A stretch of 27,016 nucleotides of DNA, taken from positions 1 to 27,016 of the IMG/VR virus record IMGVR_UViG_3300031696_000042. One strand, given 5' to 3'. Both the position numbers and the translations under genes were made by a program. Positions 655 through 21,225 of this stretch are shown piece after piece. Positions within the stretch are counted from its first letter, which is position 1. Every line of letters begins with the position of its first letter. The notes under the pieces were generated by a model, which worked only from the letters and a program-made list of their open reading frames with translations, was not told where the DNA came from and ran no database searches. The DNA is from a virus.

Positions 655-978
655 TTACGACAATGCTCCTATTAAACTATATTGCCTTGCATTTTGCCAG
701 GTATCGTCAAACATTTCTAAATTGTGTTTGATTTTTCGTATACTACTATCAGTTGGCCGTTTTACTGCCGCCAATGCTTCGTTGTGTGCTGCTTTGAGAT
801 ATAAATCTGCACTCCTAAACATTGATTGGCAATCTCTATAACGAGACCATCCTACCTTGCTTACTTCTTTTTCTCGCATTATGCCAAGTAAACTACGGTG
901 TTCAACATCAAACTTTTCTCTAAGCTGTTCTGTTTCTGATATCAATGTGTAAACCGCGTCATACTTAGACAGAGACAT
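655..978 (-). CDS. Hypothetical protein, 107 aa, downstream of uvsY
   Basis: The protein appears mostly helical, with charged Lys/Arg/Glu segments and no recognisable catalytic motif. Its start overlaps the end of uvsY by 14 bases, with a GGA-type ribosome-binding site six bases before ATG, so it is probably translated from the same message. Function is unknown. The link to uvsY suggests, without proving, a role in DNA replication or recombination, or simply early co-expression. Confidence 0.7.
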   Translation of the reverse strand: MSLSKYDAVYTLISETEQLREKFDVEHRSLLGIMREKEVSKVGWSRYRDCQSMFRSADLYLKAAHNEALAAVKRPTDSSIRKIKHNLEMFDDTWQNARQYSLIGALS

Positions 979-1423
979 CTTCCATCCCCGCTGTGCGTAA
1001 TCTTACAACGTGACCAAGCATAAAGTTCTTACTCTCAAGTCCTTTCATAATGCCTAGCCATCTATTGCGCAATAACGCTACCTCGTTGATAATAGTTTCA
1101 AAATCAATAACTTCATCTTCGCCATCAACATACTTTTCAGCATCTCTACTGGTGAGAACCCTTGCATAATTCTCTAGATATTTTGCGAAGTGCTTACGTC
1201 TAATTTTCCGTAACTGTATGTTGAGGTGATTAAGAACTGCCTCAATTTCTTGCAGTTGCCCAAAACGAATCTCAGTTGCTGCAGGTAGTTCTTTAATCCT
1301 TGTTTCAACAAGTCCATATATAGCAACTTCTTTACGAGCCTCTTCTAGCTCGCCTTCGAAGTACGAAATAAAATCTGGGATATTACCAAGACTATCAACA
1401 ACCTTTGTGTACCAATTTGTCAT
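965..1423 (-). CDS. uvsY: UvsY-like recombination mediator
   Basis: UvsY is the T4 mediator that loads the UvsX recombinase onto gp32-coated single-stranded DNA. At 152 aa the protein is close to T4 UvsY (137 aa). The C-terminal half matches the T4 pattern as I know it: a Lys/Arg-rich helix with a YLENYARVLTSRDAEKY region, then an Asp/Glu stretch, then a helix with LRNRWLGIMKGLESKNFMLG and a RTAGMED ending (T4 has a similar Trp-Gly-Ile then SRGFAIKHIQD arrangement). The N-terminal half is a diverged coiled helix. It lies in the same module as gp32 and uvsX. There is no ribosome-binding site: a sigma70-like promoter ends six bases before ATG, so the message may be leaderless. The identification rests on pattern matching, not alignment. 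Confidence 0.75.
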   Translation of the reverse strand: MTNWYTKVVDSLGNIPDFISYFEGELEEARKEVAIYGLVETRIKELPAATEIRFGQLQEIEAVLNHLNIQLRKIRRKHFAKYLENYARVLTSRDAEKYVDGEDEVIDFETIINEVALLRNRWLGIMKGLESKNFMLGHVVRLRTAGMEDVSV

Positions 1424-1429
1424 TCTTTA

Positions 1430-1457
1430 ATTATACACTATTTCAAAGTTAAGTCAA
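1430..1457 (-). promoter_or_regulatory. Sigma70-like promoter of uvsY
   Basis: On the minus strand, TTGACT (1452-1457) and TATAAT (1430-1435) are separated by 16 bases. Only six bases separate the -10 box from the uvsY ATG (1421-1423), so the expected transcription start falls on the A of the start codon. The -35 box touches the stop codon of the radical-SAM gene upstream. Confidence 0.7.
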
Positions 1458-3526
1458 ATATTAAGTATTTGATGTTTGAGTTTATTTGTGCCACTTAGTG
1501 GCTGCGCTGATTGTTTTAAGTAATGCCTCCAGAACGGTGCGTTAAATTCAACGACAAATTTACTATAATTTGTCCACAATCCTGCTCTACTTTCTAGTAT
1601 CCATTCCCCATGTTCTAAATATTTTGTACTATTATGTAAATAAGTTTTATCGTTAACTATATCAGTTTGATCTATAACTAATGAATTAATAGCGACATAT
1701 TTGTCTCTAACAATATCACCAGTATCACCAAATGTTATATCATTCTCAGTTTTATTTAACAGTTGCATAGAGAACTCTTGATTTCGACTATAATCGTAGT
1801 CTACATCAAACTCAAGTTGTCTGCGGCCCTCTGGTAAACTACCTATATAGATTTCATTAGAGTTCCATTTAATACTAACGATTGGATCGTCTACGCCACG
1901 ATAACTATCTAACTCTAACTTGATGCATGTACTACTATATGTGTTGCGAACAAGAGCATCTACATGATCAATTATATTATCCATCAGAGCTACCGCAGGT
2001 TCACTTCCCTTGGGCTTATCCTTAAAAAACTGTCTGGCATTTTCCATATCAACACCAACTTGGCTTACTAGTCGTTCTGATACCCTGAATCGATTAAAGG
2101 GAATATTATATTCTTGAAAGAGATATACAAGACAGTATAGACGTGCCATCTTTTCCTTGTATGTGAGCGTGGAATTATCAGGATGCCAATGTAATTGAGT
2201 AAAATTGTTGTTAGGGAATTGTAACCCACTATTGCGGCTACTTGGAGTATCGGTTAATACACTAAATGCACTTAGGTTTATTAAGTTAATATCCCCAGAA
2301 GCAAACTTAGGGCCAAACTTAACAAATGTAACTAATTGCTCTAAGAAATCCTCATATCGCTCACTCCAGTGCCCAACAATAATATTTAGTATTGATTGTA
2401 TTCCTACTTGGCCCAGTTGTTCAAGTTCATATAATAATCCATCTACGTCAGTTTTTTTATTCATATGTAGTAGAACATGATCACTACCAGCTTCAGCACC
2501 AATAGTTAAACTAGTACACCCGCTGTCCTTGAGTGTTTTATAAAACTCTGATCCATATGCACTGCTACGTATTCTTGGTCTAGCAATCCAATTCGCATTC
2601 CACGTAATACGTTTTTCAACTGGTGTTGCTTTGTTATGTTTTGCGAGTATACGAATGAACTCATTAACACTTCTCATACTACCATTGGCGATACTATCTG
2701 CACTAGCAAAACTATATATACCATGCCTATTAGCAAGGAATATCATTTCATCCGCTAAATGCTGTGCGTCTTTTTGTTGAAATTTTCCAAATTGAACAGC
2801 AACATCACAAAAATCACATGCTCTTACACACCCCTTGGTTGTGTAGACTGGAAGTTGTTGTAATATTCCTGCTCCTTGTATACCATACGACATAAGATTG
2901 TAATCATCAAAGTTACTAAATGGATATGTCAGTTTATTGTTTGTAGGGGTCTTCTGTTTGAACAAATTATCTACATAACTTCCATCAAGTAAATCTATAA
3001 TAGCATCCTCACTATCACCAAGTAGTACTTTGTCATATAGGTGTTCTTGAGATAATAACTGATAAAACAACGTTTTTTGACTAGTCAGGCTTTCAAATGG
3101 ACTAGTGGTGAGTCCTTTTCCTCCTACTACAATCTCCCAATCCCTAGGCAGGTCTTTAATATACTTTAGGAACTCGTATGTGGCTATGTGTGCATAAACA
3201 CTGAATACACTGATTCCTAAATACTTAATTTTATAATTACATATACGATCATACAGTAATTGGTAGAAGTCACGGGGGTTGTCAAGAGAAGGCAACCCTA
3301 GCCAATAACTACTTTTATCAAAGTATTGGCTAGGGTCATTATTACAAAAATTTTTTAAAAAAATTATATTCGTGTCAATAATTTTAATACTGTACCCTGC
3401 ACTTTCTGCAATGCCTTTAAGTACTGCTGGGCCGCACGGAGGAACTTCTAACTCACTATACGGGAGAGTCAACAATAGCATATCATGTTGACTACTAGTC
3501 TCCGTCTCCGAACTCCATTTCTTCAT
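1454..3526 (-). CDS. Radical SAM enzyme with N-terminal B12-binding-like domain
   Basis: This 690-aa protein has three visible parts. Residues about 15-185 look like the Rossmann-type domain that precedes many radical SAM enzymes (LTLPYSELEVPPCGPAVLKG, then GISVFSVYAHIATYEF and VVGGKGLTTSP); the cobalamin-ligand motif DxHxxG is not seen, so B12 may not bind. Residues about 225-480 hold the radical SAM core with the iron-sulfur motif CVRACDFC (Cys233, Cys237, Cys240; CX3CX2C) and later TIGAEAGSD. Residues about 525-680 look like an all-beta accessory domain. The reaction cannot be named. The gene overlaps the 72-aa gene by 32 bases and lies between uvsX and uvsY. The start is uncertain: Met16 (ATG at 3479-3481) is an alternative, but neither has a strong ribosome-binding site. 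Confidence 0.85.
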   Translation of the reverse strand: MKKWSSETETSSQHDMLLLTLPYSELEVPPCGPAVLKGIAESAGYSIKIIDTNIIFLKNFCNNDPSQYFDKSSYWLGLPSLDNPRDFYQLLYDRICNYKIKYLGISVFSVYAHIATYEFLKYIKDLPRDWEIVVGGKGLTTSPFESLTSQKTLFYQLLSQEHLYDKVLLGDSEDAIIDLLDGSYVDNLFKQKTPTNNKLTYPFSNFDDYNLMSYGIQGAGILQQLPVYTTKGCVRACDFCDVAVQFGKFQQKDAQHLADEMIFLANRHGIYSFASADSIANGSMRSVNEFIRILAKHNKATPVEKRITWNANWIARPRIRSSAYGSEFYKTLKDSGCTSLTIGAEAGSDHVLLHMNKKTDVDGLLYELEQLGQVGIQSILNIIVGHWSERYEDFLEQLVTFVKFGPKFASGDINLINLSAFSVLTDTPSSRNSGLQFPNNNFTQLHWHPDNSTLTYKEKMARLYCLVYLFQEYNIPFNRFRVSERLVSQVGVDMENARQFFKDKPKGSEPAVALMDNIIDHVDALVRNTYSSTCIKLELDSYRGVDDPIVSIKWNSNEIYIGSLPEGRRQLEFDVDYDYSRNQEFSMQLLNKTENDITFGDTGDIVRDKYVAINSLVIDQTDIVNDKTYLHNSTKYLEHGEWILESRAGLWTNYSKFVVEFNAPFWRHYLKQSAQPLSGTNKLKHQILNI

Positions 3527-3713
3527 CTAATCCACCGTTATATTCTACTGCCGTTTTTAAGTAAGTATCACCAGCAGCTAGTGAAGCCATGATTTGATCA
3601 TCTACGCCGGCGTCAATTAAAATGCCAATCCAATGGTCTGCTGCTTGTTGTTTCTCCTTGATATATTCTTTAAGTATTAACCAAGATTCCACCAATAATT
3701 CTTCTTCTTCCAT
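3495..3713 (-). CDS. Hypothetical acidic protein, 72 aa
   Basis: This small acidic protein starts one base after the uvsX stop (TAATATG), with an AGGT site upstream inside the end of uvsX, so it is almost certainly translationally coupled to it. Its middle is helical (ILKEYIKEKQQAADHWIGIL) and its end is very acidic. It overlaps the radical-SAM gene by 32 bases. I do not recognise the family. Its fixed place behind uvsX hints at a recombination accessory role, but that is inference. Confidence 0.75.
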   Translation of the reverse strand: MEEEELLVESWLILKEYIKEKQQAADHWIGILIDAGVDDQIMASLAAGDTYLKTAVEYNGGLDEEMEFGDGD

Positions 3714-3714
3714 A

Positions 3715-4812
3715 TTATACCTCAGTTATATCAAGTTGTTCGTCGACAACGTCATTAATTTCTTCAATTTCAGCTACTAGTTCTGTTTCTGCATTACTTA
3801 TAGGATCATCGGCCATATCCTGCATAATAATTTCAAGTTTATCACCAGTCCATCCTTTACGGAATTCTAACATCTCCTCGCCTGCGGCTGTTGTATACTT
3901 TAGGCGGTTGCCTTGCTTAGTTAGTAAGCCTTGTTTCTCAAACATATCAAGTAACCCACTATACGGATCCATCCCTGACTCGTATGGAATCTTAACTTGT
4001 ACTGCCTCAAACGGCTTCGAGTACCGGGTCTTCATAACCTTACATGCTGCCCTAATCCCCATAACATCACTTACCTTATTACCGTCTGAGTCTTCTTTAA
4101 GTTTAAGTTTCCGCATGGCAACCACAATACTGGATGCATAGATAAAACCCTGCCCGCCACTGATCTTATCATCTGGATCAAACATATCCTGTGATGCATA
4201 AGTGTGGTTAGTGGCAACAATACCCACGTTATAACTACCAATCATATTGACTGTATTACGCACCAGTGATGTTAACGCCTTTGGCTTACGTCCGAGGTCG
4301 CCTTTCATGTCACCAGCTTCAAATTGATTAACGTCAGTTGGGGTCATCATCATACCTAAACTATCAAGTACAAACAACACCTTGGGACGTTCTTCTTCTG
4401 GCATCGCTTTATAGTCTTTCATAAACGTACTGATAGTTTTTGCAACGTCGTCAATCATACTCATGCTTAGTTTAAGCAGTTTACTTTCATCAGTGTCAAC
4501 ACCGAGTGCTTTTAGCCAACTCTCATCCAGTGCGTTCTCTGAATCAATCAATACTACAAAGATACCTTGATCTTGCGCATTTTTAACGATGTTTCCGCTT
4601 GCAAAGTAACTCTTTCCTGCTCCTGATTCGCCGGCAAACACTGTAACTTTACCCATAGGAACCCCTTTGTGAAAGTCTCCACTGATAAGGTAGTTAAGTG
4701 CGAGTGAGCCGGTACTGATCCAATCAGTAGGATCATGGAACCCAATACTGAGTCCGTCAATACTCTTTGTGATATCTTTTCTAAACTTGCTGACGTCAAA
4801 TGGTTTTGCCAT
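3715..4812 (-). CDS. uvsX: UvsX RecA-like recombinase
   Basis: UvsX is the phage strand-exchange protein that forms filaments on single-stranded DNA and drives recombination-dependent replication and repair. The 365-aa length is close to T4 UvsX (391 aa). Visible motifs: Walker A GESGAGKS (residues 61-68), the IDSEN segment with the probable catalytic Glu92, Walker B VLFVLDS (from about 145), and the ATNHTY segment (200-205) before the DNA-binding loop region GGQGFIYAS. The C-terminus is acidic, as in RecA-type proteins. It starts with ATG preceded by AAAGGTG. It lies downstream of gp32 on the same strand and is separated from it by a GC-rich hairpin. UvsY, its loader, is two genes further on. 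Confidence 0.95.
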   Translation of the reverse strand: MAKPFDVSKFRKDITKSIDGLSIGFHDPTDWISTGSLALNYLISGDFHKGVPMGKVTVFAGESGAGKSYFASGNIVKNAQDQGIFVVLIDSENALDESWLKALGVDTDESKLLKLSMSMIDDVAKTISTFMKDYKAMPEEERPKVLFVLDSLGMMMTPTDVNQFEAGDMKGDLGRKPKALTSLVRNTVNMIGSYNVGIVATNHTYASQDMFDPDDKISGGQGFIYASSIVVAMRKLKLKEDSDGNKVSDVMGIRAACKVMKTRYSKPFEAVQVKIPYESGMDPYSGLLDMFEKQGLLTKQGNRLKYTTAAGEEMLEFRKGWTGDKLEIIMQDMADDPISNAETELVAEIEEINDVVDEQLDITEV

Positions 4813-4887: not shown

Positions 4888-5907
4888 TTATGCCTTTTGG
4901 CGACTGCGAATCATTGCAAGAATGTCTTCTGCACTCTTACCTCCGCTATCTCCAGCTGACCCTGGAGTTGGAGTTGCTACTGGGGCAACTACTTCTGGTG
5001 CAGCTTCTGCTACTTGAGCAGGCGGTGCTGCAATTGCTTCTTCAGCTACTTCAGCTACTTCAGCTACTGGAGCGGGAGTTGCCACTGCTACCGCTGGTGC
5101 AGGTGCAGGTGCTCCAGCTGGAGCATCGATGCCGTATGGGCGATAATATTGCCCAAATCGTTCAACATCATATGGCTGACCATCTACAGATGCCTCAAAC
5201 ATTTCCTTAATAGCATTAAGTTCTACTTCGTTTGGACGCTTGGGTAGAAAATCATTAAGGGTATAAAGACCATTTACATCAATAGCTGCACGTTGCACTT
5301 CAGTTATTGCAGTCTCTTTGCGTGACCACTTACTTGTTGAATAATCAGCATATTGTCCTTTTGTAGTTTTTGTAATACGAAAGTCCAAACCCATATCATA
5401 ATCCGTAGGGAGTTCCTGAATATCAGGATCCATTAATGCGTCTTTAATAATGTTAAAGATACTTGGTGAGATTACAAACCTACGAATTGGATTTTCAGAT
5501 TCAGTATCACCCACTAGTGGGTTATCCGTTACAAAGCCTTGGAAAATATACGAACGCTTTTTCCAGTACTTACGGCCCATATCTTCTAATGTTGGGTCTT
5601 TAAACCAAGGCCGTACTTCTGATAGAACTGGACAAGTATCGCCCCACATTTCAACGCAAGGAACTTGTACTTGTAAAGGTTTGCTATTCATATCGCCTTT
5701 AACGCCAGCAAAGGGCAAGCGAATCATTAGCCGTTCTTTCCAAAAGAAAGTATTTGATTCATCCGCATCCGGAAGGAAACGTACAACTGCCGTTGAGCCT
5801 TCTGGAATATTCCAATGTGGGTAAATTGCGTTATCGCCGCCGCCTGATCGGTCGCTGCGATTATCTTGAGATTTTAGTTTTGCTCGAATTTCTGCTAGTG
5901 ATGCCAT
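4888..5907 (-). CDS. gp32: Single-stranded DNA-binding protein gp32
   Basis: gp32 coats single-stranded DNA during replication and recombination and works with UvsX and UvsY. The 339-aa protein has the family layout: a basic N-terminal cooperativity segment (LAEIRAKLKSQ), a core with STAVVRFLPDAD (about 38-50), VPCVEMWGDTCPV (82-94) and KYWKKRSYIFQGFV (113-126), and a flexible tail. Two points differ from T4. The zinc site of T4 (one His, three Cys) is not intact: only Cys84 and Cys92 are present here and no nearby His is seen. The tail (about 260-320) is a low-complexity Ala/Pro/Val/Glu linker ending in a conserved-looking KSAEDILAMIRSRQKA. The start has GGAG about ten bases upstream and a leader of about 65 bases from a strong promoter. 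Confidence 0.92.
   Translation of the reverse strand: MASLAEIRAKLKSQDNRSDRSGGGDNAIYPHWNIPEGSTAVVRFLPDADESNTFFWKERLMIRLPFAGVKGDMNSKPLQVQVPCVEMWGDTCPVLSEVRPWFKDPTLEDMGRKYWKKRSYIFQGFVTDNPLVGDTESENPIRRFVISPSIFNIIKDALMDPDIQELPTDYDMGLDFRITKTTKGQYADYSTSKWSRKETAITEVQRAAIDVNGLYTLNDFLPKRPNEVELNAIKEMFEASVDGQPYDVERFGQYYRPYGIDAPAGAPAPAPAVAVATPAPVAEVAEVAEEAIAAPPAQVAEAAPEVVAPVATPTPGSAGDSGGKSAEDILAMIRSRQKA
5041..5067. repeat. Three tandem 9-bp units in the gp32 linker
   Basis: The unit ttcagctac occurs three times head to tail. On the minus strand it encodes the repeated Val-Ala-Glu triplets of the gp32 C-terminal linker. It is in frame, so copy-number change would alter linker length without a frameshift. 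Confidence 0.85.
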
Positions 5908-6084: not shown

Positions 6085-8727
6085 TTAGTTTTTAGCAATA
6101 TCCTGGAGTTTTCTAATATCACGGGCTACCAAACTTCTTGGTGTAATTTGGTAACCGGCTTCACCTTCGTGAATTCCATGGTTACTCTTAGCGCCTGAAT
6201 TAATGCCTGCTGCTTTCTTAAGCCATGCCATATCGTCTTCTTCTACTGCATCTTCTTCATGAACATCTGTATCTCCTTGCTCTAAAAAATCGCTAATAAT
6301 ACCTCTTGCATCTGCATCCGGATCGTTATCTGCTAATTCACCAAGGTCATCGTATAGTTCATCATCACCAATATAGTTTCCTACTATATCAATCGCATCT
6401 TTTGCTGGGATAGGGCCGCTTGCTATAAGTTCCTGAAGGCCAGACATATCGTCTGCAATATGCCATGTTCCTTCTTTAACAGTGTCTTCTTCTTCAGATT
6501 CTTTAATCAATCCCATGGCATCTAATTTATCAAATATATATTCATGTGGATCACCGTCTCTGCCTTTTTGTGTTCCGTAAGGCATTTCATCACTAAAGTG
6601 CCGATACAACTTGTCCATTAACGCTTCATCAGCTTCGTAAACATCTGGTCCGGCAGCTATCTTAGCGTCCTCTTCTGGCGTTAAGTTTAAATTATTTGTG
6701 AAACTGTCCATTTCGGAGTGTTCGTTAAGTTTGAGGCCACGTGCTTTAAGTTCACGATACGCCGCTTTGATTTGCTGACCAAACACAGGTGAAATATCTG
6801 GTTCGTCTGTGTCGTTTTTCTTAATCCATGCTTTTAATTTAACATCGGACATTTTATTAAAGGCGCCACTCGTCTCTGCAACAACTTCATCACCATCTCT
6901 GATAATTTGATCTATAGGTTTGTTGTATCTTTCAATCGCGCCGTCTGAGTTAAGAGCATATTTAATTTTCCAACCATCTCTTTTTGCATCATTAACATTT
7001 TTTGTGCTAGGTTTAATACTCTGTGTTTCGTCGCCACGTATCATCACAATAACATTAGTTGACATATCACTGTCGTCTTCTTCGTCGTTTTCATATTCAT
7101 CAAATTCGTTTGCTTCATCGTCTGATGTATTATAACTGCCGTCTTTATCAAAGCCGCCCTCAACAACACCATCTATAGCATTTTCATATGCTTCCATTGG
7201 ATCTACTGCTTCTTTGGGACCTTCAATTTGTTTAGGCTCAGGTTGAGCAGCTATTGATTTGCTTTGCGCAAGGGCCATCTTAGCAAGTGAAATAGCCTTT
7301 ATCTTATTTGCTTTATAATCTGGATCGTCTTTTGTTCTCTTACCAAACGTAGTGTCTTCACTACTAATTTCATTTGCCATATTGCCTGCCCAGTTTGCAA
7401 CACTGTCATCTTGAGCGCGATCTGCAACATCCCTAAGGACGGCGGTAAGTCTACCAAGATTATCCATAAATTGCATACCTTGATACGCCGGCGTGCCGGG
7501 CATCATTTCTAATGTTGCCGGCAATTCAAAATCTGGCCTATCTATACTATCTGCAGAGTCAGCACCGCGATCTGACATACCAATGCCCATTTCGCCATGG
7601 CCCTCTTGGTCTTCTTTTTCAAAATACCACTCACCAATTTCTTTACCATCCTTGACAGCAACTTTATGCTCTGCGTCTGGTGTATTCATATCACCATCTT
7701 TAACTTCAGCCTTCATTGCCTTCGCAGCGGCTAGCCATGAATTAACATCTTTAAAGTGATCTCCAGTCTTTTTCTCACTTAACTTGACTGCACGGCTTAC
7801 TGCCCCCAGACTATTTTCTAATCTAGTATCAAATACTTCTCGTGTTAGGCGTGTGCGTAAATCATTAACATCATCTTCATCTACTTCAATTTCATGCGGT
7901 TCAAAATTTTCGAAGTAATCAATATAACCTCGTTGCTTAGTAACACTCTCAAGTGTGCTTTTCAATCCATAATAACGGCTAGTTGCTTTTTCAATTACGT
8001 CTTGGGCGTCCTCACTTACATAATCATCTTTTTTAACACTACGGACAAATCCCTTTAATTCAGACATTTCTGCCATGATCTCTGAAATGTGTTCACCATG
8101 CTCATCGTTCTGATAACCACCGTTACTGATATGTCTTGCCATCGCCCTGGCGCCCGGTAAATAGTTATTCTCGAAACGGAATCGTTCTCCCATACTATTC
8201 TCAATGTAGATGGCCTTAATATCTCTACTGCGAGACCCTTGCCTATCCTCATCTACAGTATTATGGTGCTGAACAAGTAGTCTGGCACCATTTAGGTCTT
8301 GGTAGCTCTTTTGTTTACTACCATATAATTTACTTTCCATTGCAACTTTATCCTTAGAATTACTTTTACCAACCAAAAAATCAAAATCTGATTTGTCTAA
8401 ACGTGTCTTTGTGATGTTTTTGGCTTCGTAATTTATCATATTCCGTGAGCTGAAGTATCTGAGGTCTTTTAGGAAGTCATACCATTTACGCTTGGATCCA
8501 CTTCCTGCACCATCAATAATGTCATTCTTAAAGTATATCTTAAGACTACCTTCATCTAGTATACTAACTACTACACTTCCAAAATCTTCTCCGTTGTCAG
8601 TAAATTCAAATTCAAAAAATACTGCTTCATCAGGCACTAATGTCTTGGCGCCGTCATCCCTGCCCATCGTAAGGCTGTTAAATTTACCGCGAAGTTTTTC
8701 ATGGAGGTCTTGTGCTAATACGCTCAT
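6085..8727 (-). CDS. Large acidic conserved phage protein, 880 aa, function unknown
   Basis: The N-terminal third (about 1-320) looks folded, with a beta-rich start (EAVFFEFEFTDNGEDFGS, then KRKWYDFLKDLRYFSSRN) and a central GERFRFENNYLPGARAMARH segment. I recall similar proteins as unnamed products in marine T4-like phages. The rest is very acidic and low in complexity, with repeated short Asp/Glu tracts, and ends in a small folded-looking tail (DDMAWLKKAAGI, then SLVARDIRKLQDIAK). No enzyme motif is visible. The N-terminus has an early LxE (Leu8-His9-Glu10), as seen in T4 proteins cut by the head protease. It lies between gp17 and gp32 with its own late-type promoter and terminator, so it is probably a late head-associated or virion protein. 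No ribosome-binding site precedes ATG. Confidence 0.8.
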   Translation of the reverse strand: MSVLAQDLHEKLRGKFNSLTMGRDDGAKTLVPDEAVFFEFEFTDNGEDFGSVVVSILDEGSLKIYFKNDIIDGAGSGSKRKWYDFLKDLRYFSSRNMINYEAKNITKTRLDKSDFDFLVGKSNSKDKVAMESKLYGSKQKSYQDLNGARLLVQHHNTVDEDRQGSRSRDIKAIYIENSMGERFRFENNYLPGARAMARHISNGGYQNDEHGEHISEIMAEMSELKGFVRSVKKDDYVSEDAQDVIEKATSRYYGLKSTLESVTKQRGYIDYFENFEPHEIEVDEDDVNDLRTRLTREVFDTRLENSLGAVSRAVKLSEKKTGDHFKDVNSWLAAAKAMKAEVKDGDMNTPDAEHKVAVKDGKEIGEWYFEKEDQEGHGEMGIGMSDRGADSADSIDRPDFELPATLEMMPGTPAYQGMQFMDNLGRLTAVLRDVADRAQDDSVANWAGNMANEISSEDTTFGKRTKDDPDYKANKIKAISLAKMALAQSKSIAAQPEPKQIEGPKEAVDPMEAYENAIDGVVEGGFDKDGSYNTSDDEANEFDEYENDEEDDSDMSTNVIVMIRGDETQSIKPSTKNVNDAKRDGWKIKYALNSDGAIERYNKPIDQIIRDGDEVVAETSGAFNKMSDVKLKAWIKKNDTDEPDISPVFGQQIKAAYRELKARGLKLNEHSEMDSFTNNLNLTPEEDAKIAAGPDVYEADEALMDKLYRHFSDEMPYGTQKGRDGDPHEYIFDKLDAMGLIKESEEEDTVKEGTWHIADDMSGLQELIASGPIPAKDAIDIVGNYIGDDELYDDLGELADNDPDADARGIISDFLEQGDTDVHEEDAVEEDDMAWLKKAAGINSGAKSNHGIHEGEAGYQITPRSLVARDIRKLQDIAKN

Positions 8728-8730
8728 ACT

Positions 8731-8740
8731 GTATTTATTA
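8731..8740 (-). promoter_or_regulatory. T4-type late promoter element before the 880-aa gene
   Basis: The minus strand reads TAATAAATAC, with the element ending three bases before the 880-aa ATG. Its first TAA is also the gp17 stop codon. A T4-type start would fall at or next to the ATG, giving little or no leader. Confidence 0.5.
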
Positions 8741-20256: not shown

Positions 20257-20268
20257 TGTAAATACTAC
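20257..20268 (+). promoter_or_regulatory. Late-promoter-like element abutting the zinc-ribbon gene
   Basis: TGTAAATACTAC on the plus strand ends one base before ATG 20270. A T4-type start would fall on the start codon. No ribosome-binding site lies at a normal distance (AAAGG ends 18 bases upstream). Confidence 0.4.
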
Positions 20269-20269
20269 T

Positions 20270-20611
20270 ATGCGTCCTATATGTATCCAATGTAATTCAA
20301 TTCCATGTGCTGTGAATTATCACCGCAAGGGAAAAATTCACTATAGGAGGTTGTGCGAGTCGTGTTGGAAAAAACAAAAAAAAGAACGTCTGCCAAAGCA
20401 TCCACGTTGGTTTATGGCGGGATACAGGATGAAACATACATGCGAAAATTGCGGATATAAGCCGACGCTGCAAGAACAATTAGTAGTATTTTATGTAGAT
20501 GGGAATCGTGAGCACATTAACTCAATGAATTTAATAACGCTATGTTTAAATTGTAATGTGGAAATTAGTGTTACTGGTTGGAATCGCGGAGATCTGCTAG
20601 AAGACTTGTAA
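20270..20611 (+). CDS. Zinc-ribbon / HNH-like protein, 113 aa
   Basis: The protein has four Cys pairs: CIQC (residues 5-8), CESC, CENC and CLNC, enough for two zinc sites. The second pair of clusters, with a HTCENCGYK start, a VFYVDGN strand and INSMNLITLCLNCN, has the layout of HNH-type nucleases, but the usual catalytic His-His is not complete (VDGN where a His-x-Asp-His would be expected to vary), so cleavage is uncertain. Very similar small proteins recur in marine T4-like phages as I recall them. ATG 20270 is preferred because it begins MRPICIQCN; an upstream TTG at 20228 is in frame but unsupported. Its 3' end overlaps the oppositely oriented dNMP kinase gene by 41 bases. Confidence 0.75.
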   Translation: MRPICIQCNSIPCAVNYHRKGKIHYRRLCESCWKKQKKERLPKHPRWFMAGYRMKHTCENCGYKPTLQEQLVVFYVDGNREHINSMNLITLCLNCNVEISVTGWNRGDLLEDL

Positions 20612-21191
20612 CACTTAGTTGTAGCTCTTCAATAGAACTATCATTTGTAATAAGATAGTTAGGCGTAACCCCAGCCCAACTATACTCACTAGCATGGATG
20701 TCTGGATAGATTTGAGGCATCCCTTCCGGGTTAGATGCTGCTAATTCAAACCAGTCCGGATCATCTCCCTGCTTAACACGCACAACTACTCCGCCTAGTC
20801 TTCGTACCATAGAAACCTCGTTAGGGAATCGAACATCTGTTATTACTGTATTATTTTTGGAATCTACGATTCTAGACTCCATACTTAGTATCCATATATT
20901 TTGATGAAAGTGATTACGGAAAACTTCAGTACCCATTAACTGTAATGCTAGCCGGGGGCTAAAATCTGGAATAGCTAACCGTTCAGACCACCAATCATCA
21001 ACAGTCTCTCTCCATTGCCTGCTCTTAACAGTCGCACCCTCGAGCAATTCCCTGTCCCAATTAAATACTGAGGCTGTTGCATCTTTGAGTGATTTTGCAA
21101 AACTCTCGTGTTTGAAGCCTTGCTCGACAAGCATATCACCAACAGTTCCTTTGCCGGCGCCTATGAGTCCTATAATTCCTACAATAGTCAT
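20571..21191 (-). CDS. gp1: Deoxynucleoside monophosphate kinase (gp1-type)
   Basis: This enzyme phosphorylates dNMPs to dNDPs to supply phage DNA synthesis. The 206-aa protein starts with the kinase P-loop GLIGAGKGT (8-16), followed by FAKSLKDATASVFNWDRELL, PRLALQLMGTEVFR, and ITDVRFPNEVSMVRRLGGVV with the DVRFPNE motif characteristic of this family. The length is slightly below T4 gp1 (241 aa). No ribosome-binding site precedes ATG; an extended -10 promoter ends six bases upstream, so the message may be leaderless. The last 41 bases overlap the 3' end of the zinc-ribbon gene on the other strand. Confidence 0.9.
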   Translation of the reverse strand: MTIVGIIGLIGAGKGTVGDMLVEQGFKHESFAKSLKDATASVFNWDRELLEGATVKSRQWRETVDDWWSERLAIPDFSPRLALQLMGTEVFRNHFHQNIWILSMESRIVDSKNNTVITDVRFPNEVSMVRRLGGVVVRVKQGDDPDWFELAASNPEGMPQIYPDIHASEYSWAGVTPNYLITNDSSIEELQLSVTSLLADLRDSNQ

Positions 21192-21197
21192 GTATGT

Positions 21198-21225
21198 ATT
21201 ATAACATAAATTTACTTGTTGTCCA
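21198..21225 (-). promoter_or_regulatory. Sigma70-like promoter with extended -10, dNMP kinase
   Basis: On the minus strand, TGGACA (21220-21225), a 16-base spacer and TATAAT (21198-21203) preceded by TG-T give an extended -10 promoter. Six bases separate TATAAT from the dNMP kinase ATG, so the predicted start is the start codon itself. Confidence 0.65.

Follow-up and report, generated by a model that had tools for sequence, protein, structure and literature searches.

Promoters ending six bases before the start codon suggest leaderless expression of uvsY and other genes in a clade of T4-like phages

Described leaderless systems and the uvsY locus of the window

Leaderless mRNAs are already known from lambda cI and from many bacteria, and the usual textbook case of phage leaderless translation is cI, whose message from the promoter PRM starts at the AUG. 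The genes considered here are likewise phage genes, and for them a message beginning with the AUG is predicted from sequence; however, cI encodes the lysogeny repressor of a temperate phage, whereas the present genes, from T4-like phages, serve DNA metabolism or encode virion proteins. In bacteria, the "TA-led" genes (Zheng et al., 2011; PMC3160421) and the -10-adjacent ORFs of Deinococcus-Thermus (PMC12340547) have both been read as leaderless, and for Deinococcus this reading has experimental backing (PMC12340547). The likeness to our case lies in a TATAAT-like box ~10-12 bp before the start codon and in the lack of a Shine-Dalgarno (SD) ribosome-binding site. However, those genes belong to cellular genomes, whereas ours belong to a T4-like phage clade in which the -35 box is conserved and TAAATA boxes define a second class. 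T4 itself, also a UvsX/UvsY/gp32 phage, carries the homologous uvsY gene with TATAAT boxes upstream, but these boxes lie ~50 nt and more upstream and leave a leader with an SD-like AGAG. In openly licensed papers, we found no report of a leaderless uvsY or of clade-wide, two-class leaderless use in T4-like phages.

The window, by which we mean the whole 27,016-nt stretch of DNA analysed here (IMG/VR record IMGVR_UViG_3300031696_000042, positions 1-27,016), is AT-rich and comes from an uncultivated T4-like phage, and a search for nucleotide similarity to cultured phages returned no match. Its uvsY-like recombination mediator gene (965..1423, minus strand, 152 aa, ATG at 1423) was identified by a PHROG profile match (phrog_231, E 7.1e-12) covering residues 19-147 of the product; a Pfam search of this product gave no match. 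Located nearby on the same strand are a uvsX-like recombinase gene (3715..4812; phrog_97, E 9.5e-71) and a gene for a gp32-like single-strand DNA-binding protein (4888..5907; phrog_1192, E 1.5e-61), the latter with an SD-led start (upstream sequence TAGGAGAATAGGCACA). The gene directly upstream of uvsY encodes a radical SAM protein (1454..3526, minus strand; PF04055, E 4.5e-11), behind which uvsY lies by 30 nt on the same strand.

Read on the minus strand, the upstream region of uvsY consists of TTGACT (1457-1452), a 16-nt spacer, TATAAT (1435-1430), the 6-nt discriminator TAAAGA (1429-1424) and the ATG (1423), and the TGA stop codon (1454-1456) of the radical SAM gene falls within the -35 box. 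The two hexamers, 16 nt apart where 16-18 nt was allowed, match 11 of the 12 positions of the sigma70 consensus, against which the promoter was scored. At sigma70 promoters, the RNA starts ~7 nt past the -10 box and preferably at a purine, and this geometry predicts an RNA start at 1423. We detected no SD-like site upstream of the uvsY ATG in the window, and an in-frame TAA stands two codons ahead of the ATG. Two claims of the initial annotation, namely that a near-consensus promoter ends six bases ahead of the uvsY ATG and that neither a ribosome-binding site nor another in-frame start exists nearby, are thus borne out. Because relatives retain the residues WY immediately after the start, we judge the start codon to be correct. 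The lack of an SD site at genes of this type is partly forced, since the -10 box occupies the SD position.

In the first 14 kb of the window, 42 promoter-like matches were found compared with 43.8 expected from shuffles, and the uvsY promoter is the joint best of the 42. Because the total equals the shuffle expectation, the match alone is weak evidence, and the case for a leaderless message rests on position and conservation.

Conservation of the promoter and its spacing among uvsY relatives

The relatives of uvsY, drawn from two scans of viral contigs, include a branch in which the protein begins M-x-N-W-Y and the gene bears the promoter. Within this branch, six distinct upstream sequences could be distinguished (window; L002/L181; L167; L168/169/172; L003/178/170/171; L179/180). 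All six carry a -35 box of TTGACA or TTGACT, a spacer of 16-17 nt and exactly 6 nt between the -10 box and the ATG; the -10 box is TATAAT except in L179/180, where it is TACTAT. The mean pairwise identity is 0.89 for the -10 box, 0.48 for the spacer and 0.43 for the discriminator, whose length is kept exactly although its sequence varies. Furthermore, L003 and L168 have identical uvsY beginnings but differ in upstream context and promoter sequence, and the geometry is the same in both. The comparison of related genomes proposed in the initial annotation therefore yielded an exact 6-nt gap in five further distinct upstream regions with diverged spacers and discriminators. The conserved ribosome-binding site that would have counted against the proposal is absent from the promoter-carrying close relatives, and SD-led uvsY starts occur only in distant ones. 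The uvsY starts of Vibrio phage 2.275.O, Agrobacterium phage Atu_ph07 and Salicola phage SCTP-2 are SD-led or coupled.

No uvsY promoter was found in the close relatives L173-L177 and L183-L186 or in a large branch whose protein begins M-W-Y, and in these relatives the uvsY start mostly overlaps or abuts the end of the upstream ORF. Where stop and start overlap in this way, translation of uvsY is probably coupled to that of the preceding ORF. In one further relative, L033:2424, whose protein starts MAQWY, we could recognize no clear TATAAT at the 6-nt distance and no obvious SD site.

The contig sequences indicate that the gene upstream of uvsY is one that changes between close relatives. The radical SAM gene is the upstream neighbour here but not in most relatives, and in many of them uvsY is directly preceded by an ORF of the type of the acidic 72-aa ORF (3495..3713, minus strand), a similarity read by eye from translations and unscored. 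In L003, a different radical SAM-like gene (1656-2993, protein judged by eye) lies between the acidic ORF and uvsY; L002 has no radical SAM-like gene at this position.

These comparisons bear on the reading that the promoter match is a chance or minor one and that uvsY is expressed from a longer gp32-uvsX-radical SAM operon message by coupled or SD-independent internal initiation. The position of uvsY 30 nt behind a same-strand gene, the many relatives with coupled starts and no promoter, and the chance-level number of promoter-like matches would all agree with such an operon. However, six distinct upstream regions keep the promoter and the exact gap despite diverged spacers, coupling is unlikely with the upstream stop 30 nt off and no SD site, and promoters accumulate at the same distance genome-wide, as described below. 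We therefore regard expression from the operon message alone as improbable, and we favour a leaderless message from the promoter itself, although uvsY could be readable from upstream transcripts too.

Promoter positions across the clade and in control phages

We counted promoters (threshold, at least 10 of 12 matches) by their distance d, the number of bases that separate the end of the -10 box from the ATG, in 34 related contigs (2.11 Mb, ~2,165 ATG genes), taking as the start the first ATG of each ORF of at least 70 aa. At d = 6, 44 genes have a promoter, whereas the other distances average 3.19 (Poisson 2e-34); orthologues are included separately in the 44, so that these events are not all independent, and the genes at d = 5-7 represent 34 families. 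A second, broad bump spans d = 28-33, the range in which SD-led genes should fall. ORFs were called in a simple way, and a portion of the starts will be incorrect; such errors would be expected to blur a spike and not to create one. Only 4 of 10,209 internal ATGs have a promoter at d = 6, and none of the 64 genes with a promoter at d = 5-7 has an SD site. The start codons at the spike comprise 48 ATG, 2 TTG and 1 GTG. Leaderless initiation prefers AUG, and the near-restriction of the spike to ATG is consistent with it.

A message that starts at the uvsY promoter with a 5′ leader of 1-5 nt, and is hence translated from a short leader and not strictly leaderless, would account for the 12 genes at d = 5 and the 8 at d = 7, and start-site choice at sigma70 promoters does shift by one or two bases. 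We nevertheless consider this very unlikely, given that transcripts would normally begin at the A of the ATG, judging from the sharp peak at d = 6 and the preference for ATG.

The sigma70-type families with this geometry include uvsY, a DNA helicase, a primase, several exonucleases, an SbcC-like subunit, deoxynucleoside monophosphate (dNMP) kinase, UvdE and some of unknown function; where a function could be assigned, it is mostly replication, recombination or repair. The dNMP kinase gene (20571..21191, minus strand; phrog_139, E 1e-41; PF21448) is the second sigma70-type leaderless candidate of the window, with the promoter TGGACA-N16-TATAAT-ACATAC (21192..21225, minus strand) ending 6 nt before its ATG. 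This gap is kept in four lineages (window, L092, L152/L153 and L163/L164), and the gene has a leader with GGAG instead in L157-L161. The same geometry was also seen in five contigs for a 166-aa family of unknown function (phrog_11279, MRILTLDN..., e.g., L416:8403-8900).

A second class is formed by T4-late-type TAAATA boxes, which 133 genes of the 34 contigs carry 4-7 nt ahead of the ATG (32, 54, 17 and 30 at d = 4, 5, 6 and 7, compared with ~3 at the neighbouring distances of 0-3 and 9-16), with a further bump ~17-26 nt from the ATG. The families concerned include portal, terminase and virion proteins and are mostly virion families where identified. In the window, a virion structural protein gene (6085..8727, minus strand; phrog_13484, E 7.1e-18) has TAAATA (8732-8737) 4 nt before its ATG, and a small ORF (20270..20611, plus strand, 113 aa from the ATG) has TAAATA (20259-20264) at 5 nt. 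Late promoters of T4 (TATAAATA, used with gp55) are the evident known counterpart, in that the clade has TAAATA boxes and some of its contigs encode gp55-like sigma factors. However, TAAATA at d = 4-7 is enriched in the clade and not in T4, where none was found in 211 genes, and Vibrio phage 2.275.O shows no such spike. A gp55-like sigma factor is present in the three tested contigs longer than 180 kb and was not found in seven shorter, possibly fragmentary ones, including the window. The position of these boxes suggests that they, too, give rise to leaderless late messages.

Could the uvsY box itself be a late promoter, recognized by a gp55-like sigma factor and producing a late leaderless message? 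The resemblance of TATAATTA to TATAAATA, the gp55-like factors of related contigs and the TAAATA boxes adjoining other ATGs speak for it. T4 late promoters need no -35 box, however, and at uvsY a -35 box of TTGACA or TTGACT is conserved at 16-17 nt. In addition, the two classes barely overlap, with 34 sigma70-type and 63 TAAATA-type families and only 3 common to both. A late promoter at uvsY is thus hardly to be expected, and we retain the sigma70-type assignment.

With the identical method, promoters at d = 5-7 were found at none of the 211 genes of T4, none of the 410 of Vibrio phage 2.275.O and 2 of the 226 of P-SSM2. Because the uvsY starts of cultured relatives are SD-led or coupled and neither T4 nor Vibrio phage 2.275.O has the spike, the trait cannot be ascribed to the UvsX/UvsY lineage as a whole, and we rejected the cultured relatives as support for it. 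The initial annotation held that leaderless messages are rare in such phages; this stands for T4 and Vibrio phage 2.275.O but not for the clade, where the sigma70-type geometry is found at ~3% of genes and the late-type geometry at ~6%. In P-SSM2 (NC_006883, 134581-134610), the arrangement TTGACT-N17-TATAAT-GCAACT-ATG stands at PSSM2_156, a gene located upstream of gp45, which encodes the sliding clamp. PSSM2_156 was rejected as a conserved case, its relatives in other cyanophages having starts that adjoin or overlap the upstream gene.

A wider sample comprised 121 TTGACA-N17-TATAAT promoters from arbitrary viral contigs, selected by a scan in which an ATG had to follow at 2-14 nt. For the ATGs of ORFs of at least 60 aa, 17 lie at d = 6, 9 at d = 7 and 0-3 at each other distance of this range, and this clustering means that the geometry is not confined to the clade. 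In contigs L243-L322, the clustering at d = 6-7 takes in replication-type genes. In an ATG-independent sample of 96 viral promoters, the first ORF starts at d = 6-7 in 6 of 54 cases, which is too small a number for a firm rate. Genes with leaderless geometry may be widespread among environmental phages.

Proposed expression of uvsY and meaning for the clade

We assign a probability of about 0.8 to the reading that uvsY is expressed as a leaderless message from a compact sigma70-type promoter, as part of a clade-wide set of leaderless type; the conserved 6-nt gap and the clade-wide spike at d = 6 support the leaderless reading, as proposed in the initial annotation, well. RNA polymerase would start at the A of the uvsY ATG or one to two bases off, and, by analogy with work on lambda cI and in E. 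coli, 70S ribosomes would presumably bind the 5′-terminal AUG. It is chiefly 70S ribosomes that translate leaderless messages, by binding an AUG located at the 5′ end or close to it (PMC9031893). According to Zheng et al. (PMC3160421), a leaderless start has the advantage of tying the expression of a gene to its own promoter and not to leakage from an upstream operon. Dependence on the promoter only would fit uvsY, because its upstream neighbour differs between relatives. In the branch of the window, the promoter seems to replace coupling and to keep uvsY expressed whatever gene lies upstream.

Because relatives share the uvsY spacing and dozens of further clade genes show it as well, leaderless messages seem to belong to the normal gene expression of the clade, with DNA-metabolism genes probably expressed from sigma70-type promoters and virion genes from T4-late-type TAAATA boxes. 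In the initial annotation, leaderless expression of uvsY was taken to imply a distinct translation control, such as efficient initiation under prevailing 70S ribosomes or altered initiation factor levels, and control of this type may exist. A more speculative extension, which we consider unlikely though conceivable, is that infection alters host translation (70S ribosomes, initiation factors or ribosome modification) and thereby favours both leaderless sets, the sigma70-type for replication and repair and the gp55-type for the virion, over the SD-led messages of the host.

Leaderless starts can escape start-codon callers that look for an SD site, which matters for annotation. Because P-SSM2 is cultured and has a candidate gene, the idea is testable without cultivating the phage of the window. 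In this T4-like clade, approximately 1 gene in 11 has leaderless geometry, with DNA-metabolism genes in one promoter class and virion genes in the other. The clade would therefore offer a natural setting in which to study why a virus does without SD-based initiation, for which tight promoter-only control, escape from SD-based regulation and the use of altered ribosomes are candidate reasons.
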